In this document: in pieces, positions 24,577 through 53,070 of the stretch
How the letters are laid out: each line of letters begins with the position of its first letter
How positions within the stretch are numbered: position 1 is the first letter of the stretch
Translations under genes and position numbers: made by a program
From: an uncultured eubacterium 1-6
GTDB taxonomy: Bacteria > Bacillota > Clostridia > Lachnospirales > Lachnospiraceae
DNA: 64,000 bases
Direction: 5' to 3'
NCBI GenBank assembly: GCA_903789595.1
Contig: CAIFEZ010000009.1
Coordinates: forward strand, 1-64,000
The notes under the pieces: generated by a model
Databases searched by the model: none
What the model was told of the DNA's origin: nothing
Seen by the model: the letters and a program-made list of their open reading frames with translations, nothing else

Positions 24577-24595
24577 TGTGTCAAAATCTGTGTCA
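24577..24595. promoter_or_regulatory. TGTGTCA direct repeat
   Basis: Two TGTGTCA heptamers 12 bp apart, in the 539-bp divergent spacer between the flippase and the integrase. Similar pairs occur 138-139 bp ahead of two SLH genes. No other feature was recognised in this spacer. Confidence 0.45.
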
Positions 24596-24930
24596 GATCA
24601 CGCCCGAAAATACGCCCCGAATCGCCTTGTAACATTTTAAAATTGCCCCGTAATTCCTCCTGATGGACGGGAAAAATCTGCCGTGCATTTTCTCTTTCTA
24701 CCTCCGGTTTCCGGCGATGCAGCTCTTCTGATCTTCTGAGGCAGCGGAGCCAAACGAAAACAAGCATACTGTCTGGAAATGGTATTCTCATAAAACAACG
24801 GTACGGCGTTATGATAAGCAGACGAGATAAACCGCACTTCACCCTGAAAAACGCTTTGCTCTAAAAAACGCTTTGCTCTGAATTGCAGCTTTGTATTTGT
24901 AGGAATAATGAGAAAGAAGAGGACAAAGTC

Positions 24931-26076
24931 ATGACAAACCAGAAAAAATTACCGAAGGGAATCACCTACCGAAAGGATGGACGCTACATGTGGCGCTTTT
25001 CACACAACAGACGCACCTACTGCGGCTATGCCACTCATCTGGCAGATGCCGAGAAGGCCCTTCTAGACGCTCGCTATCGTGTGGAAAACGGAATCTATGG
25101 AAAGGAAGGAAGCCATACGATGGACGAATGGTTTGCCATTTGGCTCGACACCTTCAAGGCATCTCTTAAGGAAAGCACCCGCATCAAATACCGGCAGATG
25201 TATACCTGTCACATTCAGAGCGACCTCGGCCGGATGCGTCTTCGGAAAATCACGCCGGAGCTCCTTCAGGATCTGCTCAACCGCGTCAGTCAAAAGGGCC
25301 TCACCGCCGCAAGCGTCAACGCCGTGCGTTCCATGCTCTGCGACCTCTTTGATACCGCATGCAAGCACCAGATCATTCGCGCCAATCCCATGGATCTCGT
25401 TCACCTTCCCTTGTGCAAAAGAAACCAAATGCAGAAATCCGCCTTCACCGAACCAGAGCTTGCCGAATTCATCCGACGCGCCGAGTCCTCCCGATATTGG
25501 AACATCTATCACCTCTCGATTCTGACAGGCTTTCGAATCGGAGAAATTCTCGGACTCCAGTGGAAGGACATTGATTACGAACAGGAAACCATCTGCGTGC
25601 GCCACACCCTCTCCTACCGTTCGGGAAAAGGCTTTTATCTGGAATCTCCCAAGAGCGAGACCAGCAGGCGCATCATCCCGCTCCTCCCGGAATGCGTCGG
25701 CATCCTGCGCCGGCAGGCCGAGCTCCTCCATTTCCAGAAAGAAGCGAATCCCGGTTACACCGTTCCCGCAGGATTCGAAGATCTCTGCTTTCTCACGGCA
25801 ACCGGAAAGCCCATCTTCGCCTCCGACATCGATAAAAGCATGCAGAAAATCATCGACGGCATGCGCCGCGATGGATGGCTTGACCCCGGAAAGCGATACA
25901 CCTTTCACTCCTTCCGGCACACCTTCGCCACAAACTGCACCAGAAAAGGAATGCATATGAAGACTCTGTCCACGATTCTCGGGCACTCTTCCATTCGAAT
26001 CACCATGGACATCTACACCCACATAGGCCTCGAGGACGAGCGGGAGGAGCTTCAGCGGATCTTCCAGGTTTCCTGA
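24931..26076 (+). CDS. Tyrosine recombinase / integrase
   Basis: A 381-residue site-specific recombinase of the Tn916/phage integrase type. An N-terminal AP2-like DNA-binding part (YRKDGRYMWRFSHNRRTYCG), a SAM-like core-binding domain (about 60-165) and the catalytic domain are present. All active residues are visible: Arg202 in TGFRIGE, Lys near 241, His326 and Arg329 in HSFRHTFA, His352 in GHSS and Tyr362 in MDIYTH. It should therefore be active. The ATG follows AGAGGACA; the ORF's upstream TTG is less likely. No excisionase, relaxase or phage gene is adjacent, so it is a lone integrase, perhaps left from an element or acting on a local site. Confidence 0.92.
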   Translation: MTNQKKLPKGITYRKDGRYMWRFSHNRRTYCGYATHLADAEKALLDARYRVENGIYGKEGSHTMDEWFAIWLDTFKASLKESTRIKYRQMYTCHIQSDLGRMRLRKITPELLQDLLNRVSQKGLTAASVNAVRSMLCDLFDTACKHQIIRANPMDLVHLPLCKRNQMQKSAFTEPELAEFIRRAESSRYWNIYHLSILTGFRIGEILGLQWKDIDYEQETICVRHTLSYRSGKGFYLESPKSETSRRIIPLLPECVGILRRQAELLHFQKEANPGYTVPAGFEDLCFLTATGKPIFASDIDKSMQKIIDGMRRDGWLDPGKRYTFHSFRHTFATNCTRKGMHMKTLSTILGHSSIRITMDIYTHIGLEDEREELQRIFQVS

Positions 26077-34648: not shown

Positions 34649-34663
34649 AGCCTTAATTCCTCA

Positions 34664-36097: not shown

Positions 36098-36119
36098 TCC
36101 GCTTAAAAAAGATATTAAT

Positions 36120-37365: not shown

Positions 37366-37383
37366 TGTGTCATTCTTGTGTCA
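37366..37383 (+). promoter_or_regulatory. TGTGTCA direct repeat upstream of SLH gene 1
   Basis: Two TGTGTCA heptamers with an 11-bp period, starting 139 bp before the ATG. A pair with the same period starts 138 bp before the second SLH gene. The spacing and conserved place suggest a binding site. Confidence 0.5.
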
Positions 37384-37434: not shown

Positions 37435-37504
37435 GCATACTTAAGTAAAGAGCATACTTAATGCTACATTATATTATTTTAACTTAGGTTAGGAGGAATA
37501 ACAA
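37435..37504 (+). promoter_or_regulatory. Shared SLH leader, copy 1
   Basis: Holds a GCATACTTA direct repeat, the dyad TAATGCTACATTA (37459-37471), a TATATT candidate -10 and AGGAGG before the ATG. From GTAAAGAG to the ATG it differs from copy 2 at one base and matches copy 3. No good -35 is seen, so promoter placement is open. Confidence 0.75.
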
Positions 37505-40147
37505 ATGGCAAGAAACAAATTCTTAAAGCGTATGGCTGTTACGGCTCTTGCTGCATCCATGACATTTGGTGCCGTACCGGCTATGGCAATCCCTGCGCTG
37601 GCTGCTACTACCTCAACGGTTACTGTCGAAAGCGCCTCTGATCATCTCGGAGTTGGTACCGACGTGCAGAATGCACTTAACGCTATGGCAACCGTTACAT
37701 CGGCAACTACCAAAGACGATATTATTAAGGCAATCAAAGCATCTACGCAGTTTAGCGGATACAATGTAGATGCTACCATCACAAGTGCGACTCCTTCCGG
37801 CTATTATGATGATGGTCAGCCGCACACAGATTATCATAATTATGGAAAAATCACAGGAACTGTAACCCTGAGCAATCCGGCAAATACTACTCCTGATAGT
37901 CAGGGAACAACAACTTACAACTTCGTACTGGATGAGAATGCTTACACAGCTGACGAGATGATCGCACTTGCTGAGCATTACATTCAGAAGTATTTTGATG
38001 AAGTAAAGCCGTTTGCCGCAACCGATAAAACCGTTGAGGGTAAACCGGGCGATGAAATCAAAGATGTGACCATGGTTTCCATGGCTCAGGCTGCACTTCA
38101 GCATTATGGTATTGTTGAATCTATTACAGTCGATAAGGCTGAGAATACTACCGCTCCGGTTAATGACGACAAGAACAATACGATGACATTTACTTCTGAC
38201 ATCACAGTTTCCGCAGGTGGAAAGACTGATACCCATAAATATACTGCTACAAGAGATCGTGCTCTTCATTATCTGACCACAGCATTTGCCGGCGCGGTTA
38301 AGAAGTATCTTGAAGACCCCAGCACTAAGTTTGCAAATGATGTCGATGCCGAGAAACTCGCAAGCGTTATCAACAACCTCAGATTCTGGGCCATCAATGC
38401 TGATGTTAATGTTAATGATGATGGCACTATTACTATTAATATCGACGATAATAATGATGGTGGCAAAGGCATTGGGTCAGCGGACAGCCAGAGAGGCAAC
38501 ATACATGGAGATGACATCTATGTTAAGAACTTTAATGGCAAGAAATTTGTTGAATGTCTCAATTCTGCAGGTCTGAATAGCTCAGATTATGCACAGCTGA
38601 AGCATATCTCTATTTCTGCAACCGACATTAAGATCGGCGAAGCAAACAAGAAGCTTGCAAAGCATGGTGTAACCGGACATGTATCAGTTGACTTCCAGCT
38701 TAAGGAAGACGGATACAATGACGATCAGGTATTTACTGCCGACCTCAATCTGAAGCAGTCTGCCGACGAGATGCTCACAGAGATGACCGATGAGATGACT
38801 AGACTGTTTAATGCAGGCGAGACAGATTCACTCATCTCGACAATTCAGAGCAGCGTTCAGGATTATGCGTCTGCTCCGGAGTTACTTCCTGGTACAGATG
38901 AAAAGAGTTACACACCGGATGACACTCTTGGTGGTGTTACAGCTGATGATTTTGTCGGAACACTTTGGACCAATGCTCGTCAGAAGTTAGTTAATGATGC
39001 ATATAACAATTCACCTCTTTCTGATGATAATGTTTTTTATGCTATTAATACAGCTTATTTCAGTGATTATGTGAAACCTACCACGAAAGCGGACGGCAGC
39101 ATCAAGGTCAACGCAACTGTACGGGTTGAGAATCCTTGGTATGCTACTTATGATGGCACAATGACACCGGATGAGCAGTATGTGACCAAAGATGTTACAT
39201 TTACTGTAACGATTCCGAAGCTTAAGACAGTTGCCGCAACTGATATTGAGCTTGCAAACGCACGTACTCTTTACATTGTAAGAGGATATGATGGAAATCT
39301 CTCTCAAACAGATACAACAAGTCTGAAACTTGCTGAGTCTACACATCAGATGTTTTATGCGAAGCCGGCTACGGCAAATGATATTGTTTGGTCTTCCAGC
39401 GATCCTTCCGTTGCAACAGTTGATGAGAACGGAACGGTTACGGCTGTCAAGGGCGGTACTGCTGTCATCACAGCTTCCAGTGCTACAAACCCGAAGATCA
39501 ATGATACCATTACGATCAACGTTAAAGAGACATATAACGGATTCGTTGATGTAGCTGATCCGAGTGCATATTACTTCACTCCTGTTTACTGGGCAAAGGA
39601 TGAGGGTGTTACCTCAGGTACGTCAAAAACCACATTCAGCCCGAGCAGTGACGTTAAGAGAGGCGACATGATCGCATGGCTCTACAGATATGCGGGTTCA
39701 CCGGAAGTCAGCACATCAGACAAATTTACTGATGTGAAGGCTAGTGATTATTATGCTAAGGCAGTTGCATGGGCAACATCTAAGGGCATCACATATGGTA
39801 CAAGTGATACCACATTCAGCCCGAACAGAGCAGTTACAAGATCAGAGATGGTCACCTTCCTGTACAGATATTCTCAGGCTGTCGGCAAGACAGACGGCGA
39901 GAGCGGAAAGTCTGACTTCACTGATGTAGCAAGCAACAAGTTCTATGCGGCAGCTGTTGCATGGGGCGCAAAGAACGGTGTTGTTGCGGGCTATGCGGAT
40001 GGAACATTCAGACCGGAAGCAACCTGCACAAGAGCAGATGGTGTAACCTTCATCTACAGAGCGGTTTCTCATACAAAGGGATTAGAGGATGATAATCTCC
40101 TTAAAAAGACAAAGAACTTTGGAGTAGAAGGCAGAGAGAACAATTAA
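37505..40147 (+). CDS. SLH-domain surface protein 1
   Basis: An 880-residue secreted protein. A signal peptide (1 to about 33, ending ALAA) starts the chain. The central region is Asp/Asn/Thr-rich and unlike any family I know. A Big2-like Ig domain follows (about 590-675, WSSSDPSVATVDENGTVTAVKG), then three SLH domains (about 678-865: FVDVADPSAYYF, FTDVKASDYYA, FTDVASNKFYA). SLH domains bind pyruvylated wall polymers, so it sits on the cell surface, perhaps as an S-layer. It is a close paralogue of the gene at 47.5 kb, from which it differs by an Asp/Asn-rich insert near residues 295-322. Base composition is more AT-rich than in neighbours. Confidence 0.93.
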   Translation: MARNKFLKRMAVTALAASMTFGAVPAMAIPALAATTSTVTVESASDHLGVGTDVQNALNAMATVTSATTKDDIIKAIKASTQFSGYNVDATITSATPSGYYDDGQPHTDYHNYGKITGTVTLSNPANTTPDSQGTTTYNFVLDENAYTADEMIALAEHYIQKYFDEVKPFAATDKTVEGKPGDEIKDVTMVSMAQAALQHYGIVESITVDKAENTTAPVNDDKNNTMTFTSDITVSAGGKTDTHKYTATRDRALHYLTTAFAGAVKKYLEDPSTKFANDVDAEKLASVINNLRFWAINADVNVNDDGTITINIDDNNDGGKGIGSADSQRGNIHGDDIYVKNFNGKKFVECLNSAGLNSSDYAQLKHISISATDIKIGEANKKLAKHGVTGHVSVDFQLKEDGYNDDQVFTADLNLKQSADEMLTEMTDEMTRLFNAGETDSLISTIQSSVQDYASAPELLPGTDEKSYTPDDTLGGVTADDFVGTLWTNARQKLVNDAYNNSPLSDDNVFYAINTAYFSDYVKPTTKADGSIKVNATVRVENPWYATYDGTMTPDEQYVTKDVTFTVTIPKLKTVAATDIELANARTLYIVRGYDGNLSQTDTTSLKLAESTHQMFYAKPATANDIVWSSSDPSVATVDENGTVTAVKGGTAVITASSATNPKINDTITINVKETYNGFVDVADPSAYYFTPVYWAKDEGVTSGTSKTTFSPSSDVKRGDMIAWLYRYAGSPEVSTSDKFTDVKASDYYAKAVAWATSKGITYGTSDTTFSPNRAVTRSEMVTFLYRYSQAVGKTDGESGKSDFTDVASNKFYAAAVAWGAKNGVVAGYADGTFRPEATCTRADGVTFIYRAVSHTKGLEDDNLLKKTKNFGVEGRENN

Positions 40148-40174
40148 TATCTGTAATATAAGCGTCAATTAATA

Positions 40175-40216
40175 GGTGCCAGATCATTCCCGTTGGAGTG
40201 ATCTGGCATTTATTTA
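40175..40216 (+). terminator. Terminator of SLH gene 1
   Basis: Stem TGCCAGATCA / TGATCTGGCA followed by TTTATTTA. The second SLH gene has a near-identical stem with three more base pairs. Confidence 0.85.
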
Positions 40217-40318
40217 CGCGAACAGTGAGCCCCAGCCGAATGCGAAGTATTCGTGTGCGGCGAGCGTCGCGATAACGAGATAAAACTCGCGCAGCGTGTT
40301 TTATCTCGTTTATGTGTA
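40213..40318 (+). repeat. Dispersed repeat, family R2 copy 2
   Basis: Reverse-complement match of 13830-13932, including CAGCCGAATGCGAAG, ATTCGTGTGCGGCGAGCGTC and the GAGATAAAACTCG/TTTTATCTCG arms. It starts right at the T-run of the SLH1 terminator. The rest of the 319-bp spacer up to 40466 showed nothing recognisable. Confidence 0.85.
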
Positions 40319-40466
40319 TCTGGAGCCAATGGACACAGCCAAAGAAATTCAAATGTAAATTTACCGGCATTTCACTTTCTCATGGCACTATCGGCCGTTC
40401 TGTGTTAAGCTCAGACAAGTGGAACTATTGTCTGCATAAATAGATTAACGATTACGAACACACGCG

Positions 40467-41597
40467 ATGATGGATAAATACAGGAAACGCCAATCGGGGA
40501 TAGAATGCTTAAAGCTCTTCGCCATTGCGATGATAATCCTCTCTCATATTGTACAGTGTATGACACAGCCGACGGAATATGCCGGTAATCAGCCCTATCT
40601 GCTCTCGATCTCCGCCCCTACAACGTCGGCTTCCACATTCGTTCTGGCTCTGCTTTTTCATCTGGGTTCTCTGGGAAATGACATCTTTTTCCTTTCGTCC
40701 GCATGGTTTCTTCCGGACATCAGGACATGGAAGAAGGAGAAGTGGATGAGGCTTTTTCTTCAGACCTGGGTGATTTCTGTACTCTGCCTTCTTGCTGTTC
40801 TGCTCATCCGTCTCGGCCAGGTACCGGGGAAGCTTATTCTGCACAGTATCTTTCCAAACCTTTTCACCAATACCTGGTATATCACCGCTTATCTGCTGTT
40901 TTATCCGCTGGCCCCGCTACTGAATTTTCTCACTGAAAATATGGGCAGAAGGAGACATTTTCAGTTGGCTGCGGTTATGGCATGGCTGTACCTGGTTTGT
41001 GAGTTTTTCGTAAAGGGAGCGTTCTTCTCCTCGAAAATAGTCCAGTGGATTGCGATTTACCTGCTGCTTTCCTATCTCAAAAAGTACAGACGTTCATGGA
41101 TGGATGATCGGAACTTGAATCTGAAGTGCCTGTCGGTCGGAATGGCTGGATTTCTATTGCTTCCGGCTATTTCCAATGCTATTGGTCTGTTAACCGGCAG
41201 AGAAACCAATCTCTTATATTGGGTAAGCAACGCAAATCCGTTTCTGGTACTGATCGCAATTGCTTCTGTAAATCTTGTCAGAAGAAACGAAAATTTTCAC
41301 AGCGGAATGATCAATTATATGTCCAGTCTGTCTCTGACGGTCTATCTTCTTCAGAGCAATCTGATGTTCAAGACATATTACCGTACAGGTCTGGTGCGGT
41401 TTTTCTATAATCACTTCGGATTTGAGCACGCTGTTCTGGTCAAAGCCATTCTGATGGCGGGGATTGTTTTTCTTGCTTCCTTCATCGGAGCAATTCTGTA
41501 TGACAGGATACTTTCTCCATTGGTCGGGCATCTCAGTTCGCAGACTTTGAAATGCATTCGACGTATCTGCAGCAGGGCGGAAACGCGCTTTCTCTAA
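40467..41597 (+). CDS. Acyltransferase family 3 membrane protein
   Basis: A 376-residue integral membrane protein with about ten predicted helices. It starts SGIECLKLFAIAMIILSH, the usual opening of acyltransferase-3 proteins, which move acetyl or other acyl groups onto exported glycans. Other fitting segments are NDIFFLSSAWFL and FTNTWYITAYLLFYPLAPLLN. The usual His at the end of helix 1 is present (ILSHIV). No good ribosome site is seen before the tandem ATGATG start. It opens a run of glycan genes between two SLH genes and may acylate the wall polymer. Confidence 0.85.
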   Translation: MMDKYRKRQSGIECLKLFAIAMIILSHIVQCMTQPTEYAGNQPYLLSISAPTTSASTFVLALLFHLGSLGNDIFFLSSAWFLPDIRTWKKEKWMRLFLQTWVISVLCLLAVLLIRLGQVPGKLILHSIFPNLFTNTWYITAYLLFYPLAPLLNFLTENMGRRRHFQLAAVMAWLYLVCEFFVKGAFFSSKIVQWIAIYLLLSYLKKYRRSWMDDRNLNLKCLSVGMAGFLLLPAISNAIGLLTGRETNLLYWVSNANPFLVLIAIASVNLVRRNENFHSGMINYMSSLSLTVYLLQSNLMFKTYYRTGLVRFFYNHFGFEHAVLVKAILMAGIVFLASFIGAILYDRILSPLVGHLSSQTLKCIRRICSRAETRFL

Positions 41598-41735
41598 TCA
41601 GAAACGTGCTTTTTCTAAAAGGATGGGCCCATCTGTTCTCGCTCGTTGAAATTTTCCAGGGTGGTGGTTCTGCCTTGCACACCTTTTTTTCTATGTTATA
41701 CTTGAGAGATGTTAATGACTCAGTGAGGATGGAAT

Positions 41736-42734
41736 ATGAGCAGGGATTGTGCGGTATCGGTTATTGTACCTGTGTACAACGTGGAAAAATATGTTCGCAG
41801 GTGTCTGGATTCTCTGACCGGTCAGACTTGTTCGGATATCGAAATCATCGTGGTAAATGACGGTTCCACCGACCGTTCCGGTCAAATTGCCGAAGAGGCG
41901 GCGGGCAGGGATGCGAGAATCCGTGTGGTTACGAAGCAGAATGGCGGATTGAGTTCTTCCAGGAATGCAGTGATTGAGGAAAGCCGGGGCAGATATCTGG
42001 CGTTTGTAGACGGGGATGACTGGGTGGAACCGGATTTTGTCGGGCATATGCTGAAGGCGGCGGAGGACGGCAGGGCGGATATCTGCATCTGCAACATGAA
42101 ATATGTAAACGAAGACGGCTCATGCAGAAAACGCACCCCGCACATTGATATTCCGGATTCTGCGGACCGGGCGAAGGCCCTTTCGGACATGTTTAACGGA
42201 TACCGCTTCAAATTCCATACGCCGAATAAGCTTTATCGGCGGAATCTGTTCACGGATTACGGCATCCGCTTTCCGGAGGGAAAGCTGTATGAAGACGCTT
42301 ACACAACCTATCGTGTCTTTGCGAAGGCGGAGCGTTTCGTGTATCTCCCCGAGTATCTGTATAATTATCAGCAGCAGCGGTCCGGAAGTATTCTGGCGTC
42401 GGCCTTCAGCAAGCGGCGGTACGATATTTACGGCGCGCTGACGGCGATGGAGAAGGACATCGTGAGGGAGGCACCGGAGTTATGGAATGCCTTCGATCAC
42501 TGTGTCGTTATCAATATTCTGTCGCTGGCGAATTACCTCCTGCCGGTTTATCAGAGAATCGATCGGGCGGATCTTCAGGAGTTTCGGGACCGGACGAATC
42601 AGCTGGAGCAGACACTTCTCCACTCGAAGGTTTCTGCAAACCCGATGATCCTGCGCAGCGAGAAGATGCGCTATTATCTGCTGAACCGGAACCTCGGACT
42701 GTATCTCAGCATTTTACGTAAATTCAAGAAGTGA
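41736..42734 (+). CDS. Family 2 glycosyltransferase (a)
   Basis: A 332-residue GT2 enzyme with a GT-A fold. The N-terminus is VSVIVPVYNVEKYVRRCLDS, with DIEIIVVNDGSTDRSG for nucleotide binding, LSSSRNAVIEESRGRYLAFVDGDDW with the DxD metal motif, and KLYEDAYTTYRVF as the likely base region. It is cytosolic or peripheral and uses a nucleotide sugar to extend a glycan. GAGGAT precedes the ATG. Neighbouring genes suggest the surface polymer as acceptor. The exact sugar is unknown. Confidence 0.93.
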   Translation: MSRDCAVSVIVPVYNVEKYVRRCLDSLTGQTCSDIEIIVVNDGSTDRSGQIAEEAAGRDARIRVVTKQNGGLSSSRNAVIEESRGRYLAFVDGDDWVEPDFVGHMLKAAEDGRADICICNMKYVNEDGSCRKRTPHIDIPDSADRAKALSDMFNGYRFKFHTPNKLYRRNLFTDYGIRFPEGKLYEDAYTTYRVFAKAERFVYLPEYLYNYQQQRSGSILASAFSKRRYDIYGALTAMEKDIVREAPELWNAFDHCVVINILSLANYLLPVYQRIDRADLQEFRDRTNQLEQTLLHSKVSANPMILRSEKMRYYLLNRNLGLYLSILRKFKK

Positions 42735-42774
42735 CAGGGTCCTCCATCTCAATTTATATATAGTAAACGGCCAT

Positions 42775-42835
42775 ACGATACATTGTGCCGCAAACTGTAT
42801 AAGCCGCAGATTGCGCCACAGACTATATCAGTATC
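42775..42835. repeat. Dispersed palindromic repeat, family R4 copy 2
   Basis: TGTGCCGCAAACTGTATAAG here matches 11190-11209 closely and, reversed, 61773-61792 (CTTATACAGTATGTGGTGC). A second arm, GCGCCACAGACTATAT, could pair with it. It fills the gap between the two GT2 genes. Confidence 0.55.
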
Positions 42836-42871
42836 AGCGTCACATTCCATAGAAAATAAGGATGAATGGTA

Positions 42872-43717
42872 ATGAAAATATCAATAGTCATGCCTGTGTA
42901 TAACGGCGAGAGATACCTTGCCGGAGCAATCCGCAGTATTCTGGAGCAGACATACCGGGATTTTGAGTTAATCATTGTGAACGATGCATCCACCGACGGT
43001 TCGCTGAAAATTGCGGAAGAGTATGCCGCCAGGGACAGCCGGATCCGGGTGTATACCAATGAACAGAATCAAAAGCTTCCCCGCAGTCTGAACATTGGCT
43101 TTTCGCACTGCACGGGAGAATTATACACCTGGACCTCGGATGATAATCTTCTCCTCCCAGCGTTTTGTGAAGAGATGCACCGCGCCTTTATCGAGCATCC
43201 GGAGGCAGATGTCGTATTCGCTCGCATGAACAACATGGATGAAAACGGCCGGGTATTCGGTACTACGCAGGAACCGGGAGAGCTGAACAACATCTATATC
43301 CGGAATATTGTGGCCGCCTGCTTCATGTACCGGAGCAAGGTCCAGGAGGAGCTCGGCGGGTATGATGAGACAAAATTTCTGGTCGAAGACTATGATTTCT
43401 GGCTCCGGGCATATGAAAGGTTTCAGTTTTATTATCTGCCTGAGATTCTGTACTCCTACCGTTACCATGAGTCAAGTCTCACCTCTCGCAGATGGAAAGA
43501 TATCAAGCTCAGATCTGCGCTGCTTCTGGAAGAGATCGAGGCCAGAACGACGGATCCCTGTGCGCTGGAGAAGATCCAGACCGGGCTGTCCCGCTATTAT
43601 CAGGCGCTGTCTCACTACTATTTCCAGCAGGTGCGTGCCGCCGGAAATTCCGCGGACTGCAGGCAGCTGCTGAAGGATCGTGGCAGAAAGTTCGTTTCTG
43701 AGCTGGTCAAACGATAA
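42872..43717 (+). CDS. Family 2 glycosyltransferase (b)
   Basis: A 281-residue GT2 enzyme. Visible marks are ISIVMPVYNGERYLAGAI, FELIIVNDASTDGSL, the variant metal motif WTSDDN, and VEDYDFWLRAYERF as a likely catalytic region. It resembles short rhamnosyl- or hexosyl-transferases of capsule clusters. AGGAT lies eight bases before the ATG at 42872; an ATG six bases earlier is in frame. It follows the R4 repeat and leads into the next transferase. Confidence 0.92.
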   Translation: MKISIVMPVYNGERYLAGAIRSILEQTYRDFELIIVNDASTDGSLKIAEEYAARDSRIRVYTNEQNQKLPRSLNIGFSHCTGELYTWTSDDNLLLPAFCEEMHRAFIEHPEADVVFARMNNMDENGRVFGTTQEPGELNNIYIRNIVAACFMYRSKVQEELGGYDETKFLVEDYDFWLRAYERFQFYYLPEILYSYRYHESSLTSRRWKDIKLRSALLLEEIEARTTDPCALEKIQTGLSRYYQALSHYYFQQVRAAGNSADCRQLLKDRGRKFVSELVKR

Positions 43718-43800
43718 TGTGCCGGACCATGGTTCCGGAAACAAACCGTTCAGAACTTAGGTTGACCGCATCAGATCTGATGCAAAGGAGAAAATTCAGC

Positions 43801-44949
43801 ATGCAAAAACAGGTCGTATATTTCTGCTTTCAGAATATCGAAAAAAAACCGCCGTGTCTTTCTGAAGTGCTGCAGCTTCGTGACCGCGGATATCATATCG
43901 TACTGGTCACACCGGATTACGGCAGGGACTATCTGAATCGGATTCAGCAGCTCGGCGTGGACTGCCTTCCGTATACGCTTTACAAGAGCAGAAATCTCCT
44001 TCTGCAGAAGACCCGGAACTATTTTTCCTATAAAAAGCTGTGGGAAAAGGTCAGAAATGAAATCTGGAATGACGATACCATTCTGTGGGTAGGGACCGAA
44101 GAAAGCCTCATGAAGCATCGCCATTTCCTGAAGAATTTTCACCCTCTGGTTGCGAATGCTCTGGAATACTATGAGGACGAATGGTGGACCTCACGCATTC
44201 CGGAATTCCGGAAGATGGTTGATATCTGGACCGCCTGTGAACCGCACCGCGCCATCCTGATGGAAAGGCAGTGGGGCCTCGAAAAGCTTCCCCATGTGCT
44301 TCGGAACAAACCGTACGATCATCCCAGAAAGCGGTGTATGAAGCCTTCCACGCCTGAGATGGAGGCTCTGATTCAGCAGATCCGCGGCAAAAAAACGCTC
44401 CTCTATCAGGGAGCAATCACGGCGGACCGTGATCTGAGCACTCTGGCGGATATCCTGAAGCGCGCGGACAGCGATTACTACCTTACGCTGTCCGGTCCGG
44501 TGGAGGGAGACGCCCTTGAAAAGGTCCGCGGCAGGTATGACAGAGTGATCTATCTCGGCAACATCCCCTACGCGTATTTCCTAGAAGTTACTTCTTACGC
44601 ACATATCGCAGTGGCCTTCTATAACGACACAAGTCTGAATAACCGTTACTGCGCGCCGAATAAAATCTACGAATATTCCGGCTTCGGGATTCCGATGCTG
44701 TGCAACGACATCCCCGGACTCACCAGTACCGTCGGAGAATCCGGCGCGGGAATCTGCGTCGATTTCTCAGATCCGGACGCCGTCATCCGGGCATTGCATG
44801 AAATGGACAGCGAGTATGACCGGTTCAGCAGGAACGCAGCGAGATTTTACGATGAAACGGACAACGGTCCGTCCATGGATGCGGTCCTGAAGGAGGCTTT
44901 TCTCCTGACGCCGTCATCCGGCAGAGACAGGAACAGGAATTCGAAATGA
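43801..44949 (+). CDS. GT4-like glycosyltransferase (a)
   Basis: A 382-residue GT-B protein. The N-terminal domain carries VYFCFQNIEKKPPCLSEVLQ and HIVLVTPDYG; the C-terminal domain has TLLYQGAITADRDLSTLAD, VIYLGNIPYAYFLE and the donor-site stretch APNKIYEYSGFGIPMLC. Order and motifs fit retaining family 4 glycosyltransferases. The ORF opens 28 codons earlier, but AAGGAG precedes the ATG at 43801. Its stop overlaps the pyruvyl transferase start by four bases (ATGA), so the two are translationally coupled and probably act on the same polymer. Confidence 0.88.
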   Translation: MQKQVVYFCFQNIEKKPPCLSEVLQLRDRGYHIVLVTPDYGRDYLNRIQQLGVDCLPYTLYKSRNLLLQKTRNYFSYKKLWEKVRNEIWNDDTILWVGTEESLMKHRHFLKNFHPLVANALEYYEDEWWTSRIPEFRKMVDIWTACEPHRAILMERQWGLEKLPHVLRNKPYDHPRKRCMKPSTPEMEALIQQIRGKKTLLYQGAITADRDLSTLADILKRADSDYYLTLSGPVEGDALEKVRGRYDRVIYLGNIPYAYFLEVTSYAHIAVAFYNDTSLNNRYCAPNKIYEYSGFGIPMLCNDIPGLTSTVGESGAGICVDFSDPDAVIRALHEMDSEYDRFSRNAARFYDETDNGPSMDAVLKEAFLLTPSSGRDRNRNSK

Positions 44950-46097
44950 AAATCAGTGTGATCGCGTTTTATTATGAATGGAATCTGGGAGACGCCGTGA
45001 TCGGAGACTGCGTGAAGGATCGCCTTCAGAGAGCGTTTCCGGAGGCGGAGGTTGGCCTTGTGGACCTCTTCGGAAGAACGGCGTTCCCGAAACGGGAACT
45101 ACTGCCGATGGAACGTTACCGGGCTTTGAAGAAGAGACAGCGCCTCCGGTTCTTCTGCGAGAAATATACCCCGCTGAAGAAAGAGACCTCTCATGAGGAA
45201 TACGTATTCCATAAGATTCTTCCGGAACTGAAAAGAGCGGCAGACACAGACTGCGACGCTGTGGTTTTTGCCGGCGGACAGATCTTTGCGGATACGCTGG
45301 CGTCAGCTGTGGCCTACCTCACATCGCAGTTCACACAGAGAAATATTCCGGTATATTTTGTCTCCTGCGGCGCGGGAGCCATGGAGAGCCGAAAGCTGCG
45401 CCAGGAAATGAGAACGGTTATGCATCATCCGATGGTACGTCTGGTGACCGTCCGAGATCATCCGGACCTGATCAGCGAAAGATTTCAGGTGCATGCCGTT
45501 CAGACCTGGGACCAGGGCCTGTGGGCATCCGAAACGTACCCGATTCACCCGTCAAAGAACGGAAAGATCGGCCTTGGCATCATGTATCCGTTTGATATAC
45601 CGGAGCACCGGATCCGCGGATTTTATCTGAATATGATCGCATTTCTCGAGCAAAATCATATCGACTGGTGCGGATTCACAAACGGAAGCGACATGGATGA
45701 AGTCTTTGCGCGGGAAATTCTTCAGACGGCTGCACAGAAATGGCCTTCCTGCATGCAGAAGCTGCTGCCCTGTCCGGAAAATCCCGCACAGCTCACAGAA
45801 CAGATCGCCTCGTTCCGGGGAATCATCTCCCTGCGGCTGCACAGTCACATCATCAGCGCGGCCTTTCATGTACCGGCAATCGGGATCAACTGGGACGACA
45901 AGGTCCGGGACTTCTACAGTCTGTGTGGATTGCCCGAACGATGCGTGTCCGCCGCAGAGCATCCGGAGAAGATCTGGCAGATCTTCGGCCAGGCAGAGAG
46001 GGAAGGATGGCCGGTTTCCATGATTCAGGAGAAAAGAGCCGAAACTCTGCGGATCCTCACGGACAAAATGCGGAAGGATCTGCCGGCCCTTTCATGA
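44946..46097 (+). CDS. Polysaccharide pyruvyl transferase family protein
   Basis: A 383-residue member of the pyruvyl transferase superfamily, which transfers pyruvate from PEP to form a ketal on a sugar. Marks: WNLGDAVIGD near the start, VVFAGGQIFAD, YFVSCGAGAMES, LVTVRDHPDL and the C-terminal LRLHSHIISAAFHVPAIGI. SLH proteins are held by pyruvylated ManNAc in secondary wall polymers made by CsaB-type members. Lying between two SLH genes, this enzyme is a good candidate for that role, although the superfamily also has other activities. It overlaps the upstream transferase by four bases. Confidence 0.88.
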   Translation: MKISVIAFYYEWNLGDAVIGDCVKDRLQRAFPEAEVGLVDLFGRTAFPKRELLPMERYRALKKRQRLRFFCEKYTPLKKETSHEEYVFHKILPELKRAADTDCDAVVFAGGQIFADTLASAVAYLTSQFTQRNIPVYFVSCGAGAMESRKLRQEMRTVMHHPMVRLVTVRDHPDLISERFQVHAVQTWDQGLWASETYPIHPSKNGKIGLGIMYPFDIPEHRIRGFYLNMIAFLEQNHIDWCGFTNGSDMDEVFAREILQTAAQKWPSCMQKLLPCPENPAQLTEQIASFRGIISLRLHSHIISAAFHVPAIGINWDDKVRDFYSLCGLPERCVSAAEHPEKIWQIFGQAEREGWPVSMIQEKRAETLRILTDKMRKDLPALS

Positions 46098-46206
46098 AGC
46101 ATATATGATGCGGAGATGCAGAGGCCGTTTGCAGGCCCGCAGCATCCGTTTATCTCGCTGGCTTTACGTCTCCGGTTAAACTGTCGATTTAATATTTGCA
46201 GTATTT

Positions 46207-47298
46207 TCATGTCTGCTTTTGTGTCTGTACGTCCGTTCCGGGTTCACAGATGCTTCTCCTCCACATTGCAGAAATCTTCCGGTAGAAGTGTTTCTCGTCA
46301 AAATCTGCTTCAATGGTATCTCGCGCATTCCGGCTGTATTTGCGCCACATTTCCTCGTGACTCGTCAGATCCGACAGCGCCCTGACCAGCGCGTCGATGT
46401 CCCCCGGCGAAACCAGAATTCCATTCTTGCCGTTTCTGACACAAGCCGGAATGTCCCCGACTGTCGTACTGATCACCGGAAGCCCGAAGCTCATTGCTTC
46501 CAGTATCGCGATCGGCAGGCCCTCATTATAGGAGGGCAGAGCAAGAATCTGAGAGGACTCCAGCAGTTCTCTTTTTTTCTCCCCGTCAATCCATCCGGGA
46601 AAATCTGTCCGATCCGCAATTCCGAGCTCCTGTGCCAGTTTTTTCAGGCTTTCTTCCTCCGGACCGCTTCCGGCCAGAACGAGCCGCCACTTTTCCGGCT
46701 TTGCGATGGCAAATGCACGAAGGAGATCCTCCACTCCCTTTCTTCGAATCAGAACTCCCAGAAATAAAATCCGGTTCCCGGTGTCGTTCAGATCTGTAAT
46801 CCTGTCCGGCAGTTCCACGGCATTGTGCACGATTTCCACAGGCACACCGGGACAGATAGACTGAATGCTGTCCCTGTAATGCTCACCAAGCACTACGACA
46901 GACCGGCAGTTTCCAAGAAACTCACGAACCTGTCCCTGCTTTTCCGGACGCAGAGAACGATACCAGTCTTCAAATTCAGAGCCGTGCAGGTGCATCACAA
47001 AAGGAACGTGAAATCGAAGCGCGATCCTCTGCAGCGCACGCGCCCGGACAAAACTGCCTCTGTAAGACATATGGACATAGACCAGATCCGGCCGGTCTTT
47101 CCGCATCATTCCGGTCATTCTGCAGCATGCCTCCGCAAAGACAGCCGCCTTCGCAGCCGGATTCCGATCCGTATAAGTCGGAATAAACCGAAGCTCAATC
47201 CCCTCTTTCCGCCAGTCATTCTTCAGAATCTGCTGAATCACACTCGTAATCCCGCCCTTCACATCTCCGCGGTTTCCCATCATCAGCACCTTTAACAT
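46207..47298 (-). CDS. GT4 family glycosyltransferase (b)
   Basis: A 363-residue retaining glycosyltransferase. The start KVLMMGNRGDVKGGITSVI holds the glycine-rich loop, followed by YVHMSYRGSFVRARAL and MHLHGSEF. The donor domain shows RILFLGVLIRRKGVEDLL, LVLAGSGPEE, and the EX7E motif region LPSYNEGLPIAILEAMSFGLPVIS. It should use a nucleotide-activated sugar. AAGGGG is ten bases ahead of the ATG at 47298; a start three codons upstream would sit too close to it. The gene points toward the pyruvyl transferase gene, against the rest of the cluster. Confidence 0.94.
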   Translation of the reverse strand: MLKVLMMGNRGDVKGGITSVIQQILKNDWRKEGIELRFIPTYTDRNPAAKAAVFAEACCRMTGMMRKDRPDLVYVHMSYRGSFVRARALQRIALRFHVPFVMHLHGSEFEDWYRSLRPEKQGQVREFLGNCRSVVVLGEHYRDSIQSICPGVPVEIVHNAVELPDRITDLNDTGNRILFLGVLIRRKGVEDLLRAFAIAKPEKWRLVLAGSGPEEESLKKLAQELGIADRTDFPGWIDGEKKRELLESSQILALPSYNEGLPIAILEAMSFGLPVISTTVGDIPACVRNGKNGILVSPGDIDALVRALSDLTSHEEMWRKYSRNARDTIEADFDEKHFYRKISAMWRRSICEPGTDVQTQKQT

Positions 47299-47408
47299 AT
47301 CTTCCATACCCCTTCCCTATGCTTTCGCGACACCAAAACTCCATGGCAGTTCTTCCGCTGTTTTGACCGAAAATCGCTGTTCCTAGTTACATGTCCGAGC
47401 AGAAAATC

Positions 47409-47426
47409 TGTGTCAAAATTGTGTCA
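47409..47426 (+). promoter_or_regulatory. TGTGTCA direct repeat upstream of SLH gene 2
   Basis: TGTGTCA AAAT TGTGTCA, 11-bp period, 138 bp before the ATG. Same place and period as the pair ahead of SLH gene 1, although the sequence around it differs. Confidence 0.5.
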
Positions 47427-47485
47427 CGTATCAATCATCCACATCAAGAATGCCCCGTTTTACGGAAGAATCCGTCTTCCTCTCG

Positions 47486-47546
47486 AGTAAAGAGGATACT
47501 TAATGCTACATTATATTATTTTAACTTAGGTTAGGAGGAATAACAA
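47486..47546 (+). promoter_or_regulatory. Shared SLH leader, copy 2
   Basis: From GTAAAGAGGATAC to the ATG it matches copy 1 with one change (G for C in AGAGSATAC). The dyad TAATGCTACATTA is at 47501-47513 and AGGAGG precedes the ATG. Confidence 0.75.
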
Positions 47547-50114
47547 ATGGCAAGAAACAAATTCTTAAAGCGTATGGCTGTTACGGCTCTTGCTGCATCC
47601 ATGACATTTGGTGCCGTACCGGCTATGGCAATCCCTGCGCTGGCTGCTTCAACAGTTGCTGTTGCAAGTGCGGATGATCATCTCGGAGTCAGTGCCGGCA
47701 TTCAGGCTGCACTTGATGGAATGACAGGCGTTACTTCTGCGACTACTGCAGATGCTATTAAGACAGCAGTTGCGGCAGCATTCCCCGGCTACAATGTACA
47801 GGTTGACAACGTAAAAGCAACAGGTTCCAGCTATTATGATGATGGTCAGCACACAGATTATCATAATTATGGAACAATCACAGGAACCGTAACACTGAGC
47901 AGCCCGACTAATAGTGCTACTCCTGACAGCCAGAAGACCACAACCTATAACTTCGTTCTGGATGAGAATGCATACACAGCTGACGAGAAAATCGCACTTG
48001 CTCAGCATTACATTCAGAAGTATTTTGATGAAGTAAAGCCGTTTGCTGCAAACGATGAAAAAATTGATAATGAAAATGGTGTAATCGAAGGCGATGAGAT
48101 CAAAGATGTAACAATGGTTTCCATGGCTCAGGCTGCACTTGCTCATTATAATATTGCAGAATACAATAATGGTTCGATTAAAGTTGTTAGCGCTGCGAAT
48201 ACTTCTGCACCGGTTAATGACGATAAGAACAATACCATGACATTTACTTCTGATATCACGATTTCTGCAGATGGAAAGAAGGATACCCATAAATATACTG
48301 CTACAAGAGATCGTGCGCTTCATTATCTGACCACAAGATTTGCGGCTGCAGTAAAGAAATATCTCCAGGACCCTGGCACTACGTTTGCAAATGATGTCGA
48401 TGCTGAGAAACTTGCAAGTGTCATCAATAACCTCAGATTCTGGCTTGCCAATGGCAAGGGCGTTGGCTCAGCGGATCCGCAGAGAGCCAACACAAATGAA
48501 GATGATATCTATGTGAATAACTTTAATGGTAATCAGTTTATTTATTACCTTGATCAGGCTGGACTGCATAGCAATGATTATGCTCAGCTGAAGCACATCG
48601 CTATCTCCGCAGGCGACATTAAGATCGGAGAAGCGAACAAGAAGCTCGCAAAGCATGGCGAAACCGGACATGTATCAGTTGACTTCCAGCTTAAGGAAGA
48701 TGGATACAATGACGATCATGTATTCACCGTTGACCTCAATCTGAAGCAGTCCGCTAATGAGATGCTCACAGAGATGACTGATGAGATGACCAGACTGTTT
48801 AAGGAAGGCGAAACGACAAAAGATCTCGTTTCGACAATTCAGAGCAGTGTTGATGACTATGCGTCTGCTCCGAAATTAGACAAGGGTGCTGATGAAAAGA
48901 GTTACACAGCGGATGACACTCTTGGCAATGTTACAGCAGATCAGTTTGCAACCGCACTTTTCAATAAGGCTGGCGAGAAACTGGTTAATGATGCTTATAA
49001 CCATTCGCCGCTTTCTGATGATAATGTTGAGTATGATTGGGATGGAGCTCAAAAAGCTAGCTACAGTGATTATGTAGAGCCGACCACGAAGGCAGACGGA
49101 AGTATCAAGGTAAATGCAACTGTACGCGTAGAGAATCCTTGGTACGCTACTTATGACGGCACAATGACACCGGATGAGCAGTATGTGACCAAAGATGTTA
49201 CCTTTACTGTCGCTATTCCGAAGCTGAAAACAGTTGCTGCAGCTGATATCGAGCTTGCAAATGCACGTACCCTCTACATTGTTAGAGGATACAATGGCCA
49301 GCTGTCTACACCAGCTGCAACAACCCTGAAACTTGCTCAGTCTACACATCAGATGCTTTATGTAAAGCCGGCTACGGCAAATGATATTGTATGGACTTCC
49401 AGCGATCCTTCCGTTGCAACAGTTGATGAGAACGGAACAGTTACGGCTGTCAAGGGCGGAAAAGTCGTTATCACAGCTTCCAGTGCTACAAACCCGAAGA
49501 TCAACGATACCATCACAATTTACGTTAAGGAAACTTATAATGGATTTGTTGATGTAACTAATCCGAGTGCATATTACTTTGATCCTGTTTATTGGGCAAA
49601 GGATAACAAGATTACCGCAGGAACGACAGAGACCACGTTCAGCCCGAGCAGTACCGTTAAGAGAGGCGATATGATCGCATGGCTCTACAGATATGCGGGT
49701 TCACCGGAAGTCAGCACATCAACCAAATTTGCTGATGTAAAGGCTAGCGATTATTATGCTAAGGCAGTTGCATGGGCAACAGCAAACGGCATCACATATG
49801 GTACAAGTGATACCACATTCAGCCCGAACAAAGCAGTTACCAGAGCAGAGATGATCAGCTTCCTGTACAGATATTCTCAGGCTGTTGGTAAGACAGATAG
49901 CGAGAGCGGAAAGTCCGACTTCACTGATGTAGCAAGCAACAAGTACTATGCACCGGCAGTTGCATGGGGCGTAAAGAACGATGTTGTTGCAGGCTATGCG
50001 GATGGAACATTCAAACCGGATGCTACTTGCACAAGAGCGGAAGGTGTATCCTTCATCTACAGAGCAGTTAATCACACAAAGGGATTAAAGGATGACAATC
50101 TTCTTCAGAAATAA
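47547..50114 (+). CDS. SLH-domain surface protein 2
   Basis: An 855-residue secreted protein, paralogous to surface protein 1 over its whole length. The signal peptide region is identical. The central part shares long blocks with protein 1 (DDGQHTDYHNYG, FVLDENAYTAD, HYIQKYFDEVKPFAA) but lacks its Asp/Asn-rich insert. A Big2-like domain precedes three C-terminal SLH domains (from about 665: FVDVTNPSAYYF, FADVKASDYYA, FTDVASNKYYA). It should be attached to the wall by the SLH domains. Differences are scattered through the body, while the first ~35 codons are the same even at silent sites. Confidence 0.93.
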   Translation: MARNKFLKRMAVTALAASMTFGAVPAMAIPALAASTVAVASADDHLGVSAGIQAALDGMTGVTSATTADAIKTAVAAAFPGYNVQVDNVKATGSSYYDDGQHTDYHNYGTITGTVTLSSPTNSATPDSQKTTTYNFVLDENAYTADEKIALAQHYIQKYFDEVKPFAANDEKIDNENGVIEGDEIKDVTMVSMAQAALAHYNIAEYNNGSIKVVSAANTSAPVNDDKNNTMTFTSDITISADGKKDTHKYTATRDRALHYLTTRFAAAVKKYLQDPGTTFANDVDAEKLASVINNLRFWLANGKGVGSADPQRANTNEDDIYVNNFNGNQFIYYLDQAGLHSNDYAQLKHIAISAGDIKIGEANKKLAKHGETGHVSVDFQLKEDGYNDDHVFTVDLNLKQSANEMLTEMTDEMTRLFKEGETTKDLVSTIQSSVDDYASAPKLDKGADEKSYTADDTLGNVTADQFATALFNKAGEKLVNDAYNHSPLSDDNVEYDWDGAQKASYSDYVEPTTKADGSIKVNATVRVENPWYATYDGTMTPDEQYVTKDVTFTVAIPKLKTVAAADIELANARTLYIVRGYNGQLSTPAATTLKLAQSTHQMLYVKPATANDIVWTSSDPSVATVDENGTVTAVKGGKVVITASSATNPKINDTITIYVKETYNGFVDVTNPSAYYFDPVYWAKDNKITAGTTETTFSPSSTVKRGDMIAWLYRYAGSPEVSTSTKFADVKASDYYAKAVAWATANGITYGTSDTTFSPNKAVTRAEMISFLYRYSQAVGKTDSESGKSDFTDVASNKYYAPAVAWGVKNDVVAGYADGTFKPDATCTRAEGVSFIYRAVNHTKGLKDDNLLQK

Positions 50115-50163
50115 TCTTTGTGAAGATAATGCAGCTAGATTATAAAATATAAAGCTCAATTAA

Positions 50164-50210
50164 TGGGTGCCAGATCATTCCTTTGGGAAGGATCTGGCAC
50201 CCATTCTTTT
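50164..50210 (+). terminator. Terminator of SLH gene 2
   Basis: Stem GGGTGCCAGATC / GATCTGGCACCC followed by ATTCTTTT. Confidence 0.92.
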
Positions 50211-50266
50211 AGATGTGAGAACAATTGGAAATTTGAAAATGTCCGCCCTTGCTCAATAGTCAAAAG

Positions 50267-50307
50267 CCAAAAAACTCGAACAAGCAATAATTACTACTTG
50301 TTCGAGT
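50267..50307 (-). terminator. Terminator of SLH gene 3
   Basis: Stem ACTCGAACAAG / CTTGTTCGAGT; on the minus strand it is followed by TTTTTTGG. It lies 34 bp past the third SLH stop. Confidence 0.9.
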
Positions 50308-50340
50308 CATCTAGATTATAACTTGATCATCAATTAAGTG

Positions 50341-52764
50341 TTATGCCCAATTAATAGAAGTAAAATATCTATCAATAAATGCGGCAGCCTGACCTCTTGT
50401 TACTTTATCATTCGGTGCAAAAGTATTAGATGTCTTTCCTGCTGTGATCTTCTTTTCAGAAGCCCAATTAACGGCATTTGCATAATAAGCTCCAGATTTC
50501 ACATCATCAAACTTCTGAATTGTGTAGTCATCACCGATTGTAGTTTTCTGGTTTGCAAATCTAGCAATTAATGTCACAGCATCTGCACGGGTGATTGTCT
50601 CGCTCGGGCTGAATGTGGAAGCAGATGTACCACTTGTTATATTGTTATTAACAGCCCAAGCAATCGCCTCTGCATAATAATCCTTTGAGGAAACATCTGT
50701 AAATTTATCAGAAGCATCTTCTGCATTGACAGTTCCTGTAACTTTATGAGCAGCTTTTGCTGCACGGTACAGAAGAGTAATGAAGTCTCCACGTGTTACG
50801 TTCTTCTCAGGTGAATATGTGGAAGCGGACGTACCACTTACAACGTTTTTAGATGCAAGATTATATACCGATGCAAAGTAGAATGCCTTATCATCTGTAA
50901 CATCTGAATAAAGTTTGCTAAGTTTTACTTCAACGGAGTCAGTTCCAAGTTTGTTGTCTCTAGCATCATAAAGAGTCGCTGTTAATGTGCCTTCAATGTC
51001 TTTCCAGTTACTGCCATCACCATTAACGATCTGGATTTTATCTCCTGCATTCAACGTAATCGTTGCAGACTTGTCGTTGTCAGTTGCAGCAATCTTTTCT
51101 GTACCATTTACTTTAACAATTGCCTTATCAAGCTTTGTTGCGCCCTTCCAAGAAAGTACTACATGAGCTGTATTAGCCCCATCCGGTGTAAGATCCGGTG
51201 TGATCGTTGCTGATCCCTTAGCATCAATATCATCACCGAGACTGATTCCTGTTGCATTTTTAGTCTTAAGTGCCGGAATAGTGATGCTTGTATTTGTAAT
51301 AGCTGTTCCAAGCGGATCACACTTCGTTGTATCTGTCTTGGATGTCGCTTCATGAGTCTTGTAGAGCTGAACGGAAATAGCGACAGAACCATCTGCGCCC
51401 TTAGTCGCCGGATTATAGGTGACAGTTGCAATATATGGCTTTGCTGCATAAAGTTCAGAAGCGATCGTTGCACTTCCGCCAAGCTTATCTGCTAAGGCTT
51501 TATCAATTGCATCAGTTACAACCTTCTCAACTTCTTCCTGCGTAGGAGCGATAGTTGCACCCGCTGCCTGGAAATCAGTCGCTTTCAGATTGTTAATAGC
51601 CGTCTGAACTGCATTTGTTGCCTCAGTCTGGATATCTGTTGCACTGTGTTCAATTGTAAAAGAGTAGGTGTCTTTGTCGGTGGTTGAACCAGCTGTAAGA
51701 GTAACGACAAGTTTTGCAGTGCCATCAGCTGCGTGTGTAGCCGCTGTAGCATTCACAAATTCCACACCAGATACGGTTACATCTGTAGCTTTAATGCCTG
51801 CATTAGTTAATGCAGTATTAAGAGCTGTCTTCAAGACATCAGGATCTGCGCCAGTAATTTTTCCGTTTGTAACAGTGAATTGCTGATTCGTCAATGTTGT
51901 ATCAGCAAGAACTTTCTTTGCATCATCAATTGTTGCAGCTGTGGTAGTTCTTGAAATGTAAACAGTAGCCACGGCATTTTCAGTCGCTGTGGTTGCTGTT
52001 GAGCCGGTACCGGTCGTACTGGTGAGCGGAACAGTTACTGTAACCGTGCCCTCATTATCGTCTGTCGGCTGAGATTTAATCTCAGTAGTGATTTTACCGA
52101 TGGTGACAGCGTTAAGGATCGTCTCAAGTGTAGAACCTGCTGGTGCCGCAGCTTTCAGTTCATTCAGCTTATCCTGAACCGGAGCCGCAGATACGGAGTT
52201 TGCATCTTTGAATGTAAATCCAGGTTTAGTAGCCGCTACTTCAAGTCCCTGTGTATAATAATCAGCTGCGACAGCGGCCTTATCAGCGTCCGTGTATTTG
52301 CCACAGTTCAGCGTAAACTTAACGCCGTCAAGAGTAGCAGATGCTTTTACCGGATTGTCCTGATCTCCAGTTGTGGAATTTTCATATTCCATAATAGATG
52401 CTTCCGCACTGATGGTAGGAGCGACTACGCCACCATTTTCGTATTTTGCGGTTTCTGTAGTAATATTTTCGACAGAAACACTATATGTTTTAGTGCCGTC
52501 CTGGTTTTTAAGTGCAGTCACCAAGGCTTTCTGAATATCATCAGCAGTACTCTTTGTGGAGATTGAAGTTGTGTCAAGGCTGGTCACTGCATTGCTGAAA
52601 GCAGTGAAGAGTGTGTTTACATTCGAATCAGTACTGTTCGGATTCTCAGAAGTAACCTTCTGATCAGCAAAGACATTCATAGCGACAGCCGGTACGGTTC
52701 CAAATGTCATGGATGCAGCAAGAGCCGTAACAGCCATACGCTTTAAGAATTTGTTTCTTGCCAT
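50341..52764 (-). CDS. SLH-domain surface protein 3
   Basis: An 807-residue secreted protein whose first ~23 residues match surface proteins 1 and 2, while the rest is unrelated or very distant. The middle is Thr/Ala/Lys-rich and appears to contain repeated units of about 90-110 residues with DIQKALVTALKNQ- and VLKTALNTALTNAGI-like segments. Three SLH domains close the chain (from about 620: YSDVTDDKAFYF, FTDVSSKDYYAEAI, FDDVKSGAYYANAV). It should be wall-bound. It faces SLH gene 2 tail to tail, each with its own terminator. Composition is AT-rich compared with the glycan genes. Confidence 0.92.
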   Translation of the reverse strand: MARNKFLKRMAVTALAASMTFGTVPAVAMNVFADQKVTSENPNSTDSNVNTLFTAFSNAVTSLDTTSISTKSTADDIQKALVTALKNQDGTKTYSVSVENITTETAKYENGGVVAPTISAEASIMEYENSTTGDQDNPVKASATLDGVKFTLNCGKYTDADKAAVAADYYTQGLEVAATKPGFTFKDANSVSAAPVQDKLNELKAAAPAGSTLETILNAVTIGKITTEIKSQPTDDNEGTVTVTVPLTSTTGTGSTATTATENAVATVYISRTTTAATIDDAKKVLADTTLTNQQFTVTNGKITGADPDVLKTALNTALTNAGIKATDVTVSGVEFVNATAATHAADGTAKLVVTLTAGSTTDKDTYSFTIEHSATDIQTEATNAVQTAINNLKATDFQAAGATIAPTQEEVEKVVTDAIDKALADKLGGSATIASELYAAKPYIATVTYNPATKGADGSVAISVQLYKTHEATSKTDTTKCDPLGTAITNTSITIPALKTKNATGISLGDDIDAKGSATITPDLTPDGANTAHVVLSWKGATKLDKAIVKVNGTEKIAATDNDKSATITLNAGDKIQIVNGDGSNWKDIEGTLTATLYDARDNKLGTDSVEVKLSKLYSDVTDDKAFYFASVYNLASKNVVSGTSASTYSPEKNVTRGDFITLLYRAAKAAHKVTGTVNAEDASDKFTDVSSKDYYAEAIAWAVNNNITSGTSASTFSPSETITRADAVTLIARFANQKTTIGDDYTIQKFDDVKSGAYYANAVNWASEKKITAGKTSNTFAPNDKVTRGQAAAFIDRYFTSINWA

Positions 52765-52825
52765 TTGTTATTCCTCCTAACCTAAGTTAAAATAATATAA
52801 TGTAGCATTAAGTATGCTCTTTACT
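52765..52825 (-). promoter_or_regulatory. Shared SLH leader, copy 3
   Basis: Reverse orientation. The dyad (here TAATGTAGCATTA, 52798-52810), the TATATT region and AGGAGG match copies 1 and 2. The TGTGTCA pair of copies 1 and 2 is absent upstream. The rest of the 306-bp spacer to 53070 is AT-rich with no other feature seen. Confidence 0.75.
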
Positions 52826-53070
52826 TTACTATCATAAATATCCGTGAAAGTATTACCAAATTTTTAATTCTTGATTTGTATTTTTTTAACAAAACATTCA
52901 AAATCTGTTGCATTCTGATGCCGTTATTCGTGGTTTTCGGCTGTTTTCGCTTCTTTTTTTACGTCTTTCGAGGTGATTAAATTCAGTATTTGCTGGCTTT
53001 TGACTGTTTTTCCGTCGATATCTTGCGGAATTTTCCATCTCTGAAATTATGTCATTTTCTTTATTATTTT

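Follow-up and report, generated by a model that had tools for sequence, protein, structure and literature searches.

Inversion of the slpA/slpB segment of Lactobacillus acidophilus was reportedly described by Boot et al. in 1996. An excerpt of one account describes how a chromosomal inversion switches the S-layer of this species and how slpB is expressed in the mouse ileum (PMC7858073), and part of another gives the slp segment a length of 6 kb and slpB no promoter (PMC6015585). For the sap system of Campylobacter fetus, an extract of PMC3887049 presents several surface-array genes served by a single promoter and an invertible segment, and the title of Dworkin and Blaser 1996, given in the reference list of PMC4902306, places the promoter itself on that segment. 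In mycoplasmas, the Vpma/Xer1 switch works by site-specific inversion through a tyrosine recombinase, according to the abstract of PMC5634654. Among the open-licence literature searched, no switch of this kind was found reported for Lachnospiraceae or for SLH proteins of the rumen, and no description of an SLH-protein switch with a third gene and a TGTGTCA element.

How does the present locus compare with these systems? In the window, which is the whole 64,000-nucleotide stretch that was analysed, three genes for SLH-domain proteins open with the same 126-bp block, or cassette, which comprises a leader with an AGGAGG ribosome site and the first 22 codons and ends inside the signal peptide (Table 1). 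It is likely that these genes form an S-layer-type expression switch that works by DNA inversion around one promoter, like slpA/slpB of L. acidophilus. As in the excerpts on that species, one invertible segment (6 kb long there and 5.3 kb in the window) carries two S-layer-type genes, of which one has a promoter and the other none that was found, and inversion swaps the expressed gene; for the window, both the single promoter and the swap are predictions. The window differs in that its proteins belong to another family, with SLH domains, that a third gene is inverted relative to the expression site, and that a TGTGTCA pair stands at the silent flanks; moreover, inversion is seen here only between species. 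The sap system, to judge from the extracts cited, also combines several surface genes, a single promoter (predicted here) and an invertible segment, but there the promoter turns, whereas in the window the promoter would stay outside while the genes turn; the protein family differs as well. The section on Vpma/Xer1 offers a further likeness, as recombination between repeats is proposed here, too, to decide which surface gene is expressed. Unlike in that system, no recombinase gene stands beside the SLH genes; the single tyrosine recombinase gene of the window lies 11 kb away from cassette 1.

Table 1. Positions of the cassettes, SLH genes and associated elements in the window.
Feature	Position	Strand	Remarks
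Cassette 1	37444..37569	+	Opens SLH gene 1: leader, ribosome site, 22 codons
Cassette 2	47486..47611	+	One leader base differs
Cassette 3	52700..52825	-	Inverted relative to cassettes 1 and 2
SLH gene 1	37505..40147	+	880 aa, Big_2 and SLH domains; flank without recognisable promoter
SLH gene 2	47547..50114	+	855 aa, body 2; flank without recognisable promoter
SLH gene 3	50341..52764	-	807 aa, body 3; promoter-linked copy in the G000 assembly
Terminator-like hairpin, downstream of gene 3	50273..50308	-	Terminator-like sites in the region are no commoner than in shuffles
Predicted sigma-A-type promoter TTGGTA-17-TATGAT, flank B	52831..52859	-	Hexamers unchanged in G004 and G010
TGTGTCA-N4-TGTGTCA, flank 1	37366..37383	+	Element upstream of cassette 1
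TGTGTCA-N4-TGTGTCA, flank A	47409..47426	+	Element upstream of cassette 2
TGTGTCA-N5-TGTGTCA	24577..24595	+	Between flippase and tyrosine recombinase genes; link to the switch speculative
Tyrosine recombinase gene	24883..26076	+	Product related to Tn1549 Int; any part in the switch speculative
Segment turned against its flanks in G004 and G010	47486..52825		5.3 kb; draft assemblies
Segment invertible between cassettes 1 and 3	37444..52825		15.4 kb; from layout and inference, inversion not seen

Cassette 3 matches cassette 1 at all 126 bp, and cassette 2 differs by the single leader base that the initial annotation had noticed between copies 1 and 2. Identity continues for 34 codons between genes 1 and 2 and for 22 in gene 3, and the near-identical leader and signal-peptide cassette described in that annotation is thus confirmed at 126 bp and 22-34 codons. 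Cassettes 1 and 2 point rightward and cassette 3 leftward, forming inverted repeats; at least two S-layer-type genes therefore have an identical 5' block in inverted orientation. The DNA upstream of the cassette differs among all three flanks of the window. A 32-base core of the leader has three matches in the window at up to three mismatches, against none expected from 100 shuffles. No fourth full cassette was found in the window's own draft genome (G000; 3.66 Mb, 66 contigs searched), where the remaining three matches are 15-25 bp long. Nor was the cassette found in 20 stretches with other SLH genes, eight of them in G000 and five and seven, respectively, in the related genomes G004 and G010. 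In G010, four of these stretches (L139, L142, L143 and L145) have in common a repeat of 66-104 bp with 88-97% identity that is unlike the cassette. The intergenic stretch 60366-60570 of the window, also present in G004, contains a near match to the cassette leader and an 89-bp exact run to G004, and is probably a promoter read in the opposite direction.

SLH domains are found in all three proteins and Big_2 domains in proteins 1 and 2, which are 77% identical. The body of protein 3 had been called unrelated, which holds for its middle part (about 80-450), where BLASTP gives no match to protein 1, but not for its C-terminal part, in which positions 452-799 align with 525-852 of protein 1 at 34% identity. 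When profiles of proteins 1 and 3, each from a small alignment, are compared, the match spans almost the full length (Prob 100, E 3.3e-42); this score is probably carried by the common signal peptide and SLH end. Predicted protein structures, with mean pLDDT of 43.6 and 51.0, were too poor for a structure search. The SLH proteins of the window presumably form an S-layer. Effective codon numbers are 40.2-41.7 for the three SLH genes, against 44.3-53.9 for others (18 genes examined). Thus, the strongest codon bias is found in all three, the two that are predicted to be silent included, as would be expected if each is at times highly expressed.

A survey of the genus gave some match at E<=0.1 in seven of 16 genomes, the cassette itself being present only in G000, G004 and G010. 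These represent three species, among which the cassette is 99-100% identical over 126 bp, while the aligned DNA outside it is 82% identical between G000 and either relative. Four-fold sites differ by 33-40% in neighbouring genes (seven comparisons, from which the EAL-GGDEF row of G010 was dropped as out of frame, and in which both rows with body 1 of G010 rest on a contig that ends inside the gene) and by 32-33% in body 2; the 11 four-fold sites of the cassette are all unchanged between species. A cassette diverging at the same rate as the bodies, which the initial annotation had named as the outcome contrary to its view, is therefore not what is seen (99-100% identity beside four-fold differences of 32-40% in neighbour genes and body 2). 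No aligned block of 126 columns outside the cassette is fully identical, the best having 125 matches. Blocks with at least 123 of 126 do occur (100 of 25,084 for G004 and 12 of 21,971 for G010), so the conservation of the cassette is rare rather than unique.

Outside the genus survey, a scan of genome contigs with a 25-base core, in a collection that may omit the window's own genome, yielded six stretches, all in assemblies UBA4343 and hRUG896, where RUG presumably stands for rumen genomes. In a family search of 397 genomes, with the best two candidates per genome scored, the cassette has only short matches outside its own genome (up to about 54 bp), mostly around the ribosome site, and G004 and G010 are absent from the results. 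Body 2 has no match at E<=1e-60 outside its own genome among the best two candidates of each of the 397 genomes.

Upstream of the cassette, conservation extends into flank B, the DNA to the right of 52,825, as a 113-bp exact run to G010, and is much weaker at flanks A and 1. Promoter-like hexamers occur at flank B in the three species, and none of note at the six other flanks, which points to a single promoter. It is predicted to end 5 bp from the cassette in G000 and 10 bp from it in G004 and G010. The 100 bp upstream have a G+C content of 21-25% at flank B, compared with 41-51% at the six other flanks. By matrix score, 1.4% of 120-bp stretches drawn at random from the window do as well as the flank B site, and 16-53% do as well as the best sites of the six other flanks. 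In a plain consensus scan the B site is one of 37 that the region contains, where shuffles lead one to expect 28.6, so that the argument for the promoter rests on conservation and position. Both the single promoter and the silence of the other copies are thus predictions.

In the proposed switch, flank B would be the single fixed expression site that supplies the promoter, and the cassette, which begins near the transcription start and reaches into the signal peptide, would serve as the crossover zone. The inverted orientation of the cassettes makes inversion possible, and with a single recognisable promoter an inversion would act as a switch. Recombination of cassette 3 at B with the oppositely oriented cassette 2 (or 1) would flip 5.3 kb (or 15.4 kb) and put another SLH body behind the promoter, while the former body would fall silent. 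The likely route is reciprocal recombination between the B cassette and an inverted silent cassette, presumably of the general (RecA-type) kind, for which about 127 identical bases would suffice. Exchange with B would keep the cassettes alike, and selection for high expression would hold the B promoter, leader and signal peptide nearly constant between species. Switching would take place within a population, with surface variation as its presumed benefit.

Could the same conservation have arisen without a switch? Promoter, leader and signal peptide would then be conserved for strong expression, the genes would be duplicates, and the inversion would be a rare evolutionary rearrangement between repeats. 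The run of conservation past the cassette into the B promoter agrees with this explanation, and so does the decay of silent copies at flank A in two of the three species: the gene there is truncated in G004, and in G010 its frame breaks right after the cassette, possibly through a fault of assembly. The gene at flank B has an open frame in each of the three species, within the reach of the contigs, which favours the switch. What such constraint does not explain is the near-identity of cassettes at flanks that have no recognisable promoter, or the codon bias of the copies there, and it is an unlikely account of the locus, if one with an appreciable chance. The constraint on the leader that had been suggested initially finds support in the conservation of the site-B promoter region, leader and signal peptide; its RNA form does not, the predicted fold being ordinary (z = -0.83). 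RNA structure as the cause of cassette conservation was rejected, as 40 of 200 shuffles folded equally well, and no known RNA family was found in the leader at gathering thresholds. Elsewhere in the window, two tandem Clostridiales-1 RNAs lie at 15704-16064, and a third, partial one near 16086-16160 is suggested by BLAST to a stretch of G004 (L052).

Flanks A and 1 could have regulated promoters of another type. TGTGTCA-N4-TGTGTCA stands 59-60 bp upstream of the cassette at all six non-B flanks of the three species, with one mismatch in two of the six pairs, and at none of the three B flanks. With up to one mismatch, the pair has two matches in G004 and two in G010, all in non-B flanks (control, one), four in G000, of which two lie elsewhere and have one mismatch, and eight, none exact, in the remaining 13 genomes of the genus. 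The element may be the box of a regulator or an arm site for a recombinase. The only other close TGTGTCA pair in the window, with N5 spacing, is matched by a pair at the same place in G004; its distance to the flippase start is about 60 bp and that to the recombinase frame more than 280 bp, which makes a link to the recombinase weak. Direct repeats of 11 bp are typical of winged-helix response regulators. That period, the fixed distance of the element in all six non-B flanks and the similar pair near the flippase gene favour an arrangement in which the three genes have differently regulated promoters, TGTGTCA being a regulator's box for A and 1, and inversion only reassigns bodies. Between element and cassette, however, there is no noteworthy -10-like hexamer, and flanks A and 1 are otherwise poorly conserved; separate promoters are decidedly unlikely.

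The inversion proposed for the switch can be followed between species. In G000, flank A is joined through a cassette to body 2, which converges with body 3, followed by a cassette and flank B. In G004, flank B leads into the cassette and body 2, and flank A into a 64-bp leader (95%) and a remnant of body 3. In G010, the cassette that follows flank A opens into body 3, which converges with body 2; the body-2 contig stops inside the cassette, and a separate contig starts inside the cassette and runs on into flank B, so that the join of flank B to body 2 is by exclusion. As the draft assemblies stand, the convergent genes 2 and 3 with their spacer thus appear turned as one block against the flanks in G000 relative to G004 and G010, and both orientations of the segment exist between species. 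The modular exchange of bodies raised in the initial annotation is supported in that the same two bodies stand behind swapped flanks in related species. The repeats and their orientation are read directly from the sequence, and the swapped flank-body joins between species are observed in draft assemblies.

Every one of these joins crosses repeats of about 127 identical bases, and the orientation in G000 (or in both relatives) might be a misjoin across the repeat. A misjoin in G000 alone would leave no inversion. The length of the repeats and the breaks of the G010 contigs within the cassette speak for such an artefact; against it, ambiguity is least in G004, where a single full cassette leaves the join of B to body 2 little in doubt, and the two relatives agree. 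An artefact is very unlikely.

The third locus, flank 1, lies downstream of an EAL-GGDEF gene in G000, G004 and G010, and the identity of its body to protein 2 amounts to 70% in G010 and to 32% in G004. In G004 the cassette at flank 1 is broken by a scaffold gap, and the SLH gene there has its own signal peptide. Positions 7596-7669 (minus strand) of L052 contain the cassette start, the gap and a second copy of the first 14 bases (GTAAAGAGCATACT), after which comes the SLH gene, whose leader and signal peptide are its own.

Which recombinase might act at the cassettes? The window has one tyrosine recombinase gene, whose product matches PDB 6emy (E 5.6e-31), which we take to be Tn1549 Int. In G004 the gene occupies the corresponding position (84% protein identity of the product); in G010 it is missing from that position. 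A scan of neighbouring ORFs found no recombinase gene adjacent to the repeats, and contig C9 has no resolvase. A limited regular expression detected no TGTGTCA pairs at seven other integrase stretches or in the rest of contig C9, and the integrase stretch of C10 lacks one as well; C7 contains a pair with a single mismatch, and C32 a pair in a form outside the limited expression. That a domesticated Tn1549-like recombinase runs the switch, with the TGTGTCA pairs beside silent cassettes as its arm-type sites, is highly improbable. Such an enzyme would favour recombination of a silent site (with arms) with the expression site (without arms), and not between two directly repeated silent sites; arms at silent sites only would thus allow flipping without a 10-kb deletion. 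Another tyrosine recombinase stretch (L127; G000 contig C10, 97155-98536) adjoins another SLH gene. As to inversion of the Xer/dif type, a candidate dif-like site in the cassette matches 15 of 22 arm bases of the consensus, as do equally good sites in 43 of 500 shuffles, and no dif was found in the genome with the pattern used.

Non-reciprocal gene conversion would copy a silent body to the site of expression, the cassette providing the homology upstream. It has on its side the common 5' homology, the one recognisable promoter and a leader variant that is peculiar to two of the three cassette copies of G004, but a copied body should stay at its source, whereas the bodies swapped places as a block, and genes 2 and 3 have on their 3' side a common stretch of just 59 nt at 75% identity, which leaves this explanation scarcely credible. 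The recent gene conversion suggested at first is not demonstrated alone, with the G004 leader variant as a hint of it.

If the proposed inversion switch is real, the Lachnospiraceae include a commensal that switches its coat by turning over a segment of its DNA, and the role of surface variation against phages, protozoa and host antibodies could be tested beyond pathogens and lactobacilli. Identical leader-plus-signal cassettes in inverted orientation with one promoter would be a mark by which such switches can be recognised in draft genomes. An element found only beside silent copies would offer a handle on how silent and active copies are distinguished.

Two further features of the region concern its wider organisation. 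Between the EAL-GGDEF gene and SLH gene 1, the window carries a 7-kb sugar-use block (29963-37243; GH32, ABC transporter, LacI) that is missing from the same place in G004 and G010. A palindromic intergenic repeat of about 74 bp, at 13837-13911 and 40238-40311, is 97-99% identical to four places in L052 of G004 and far more conserved than the surrounding DNA.
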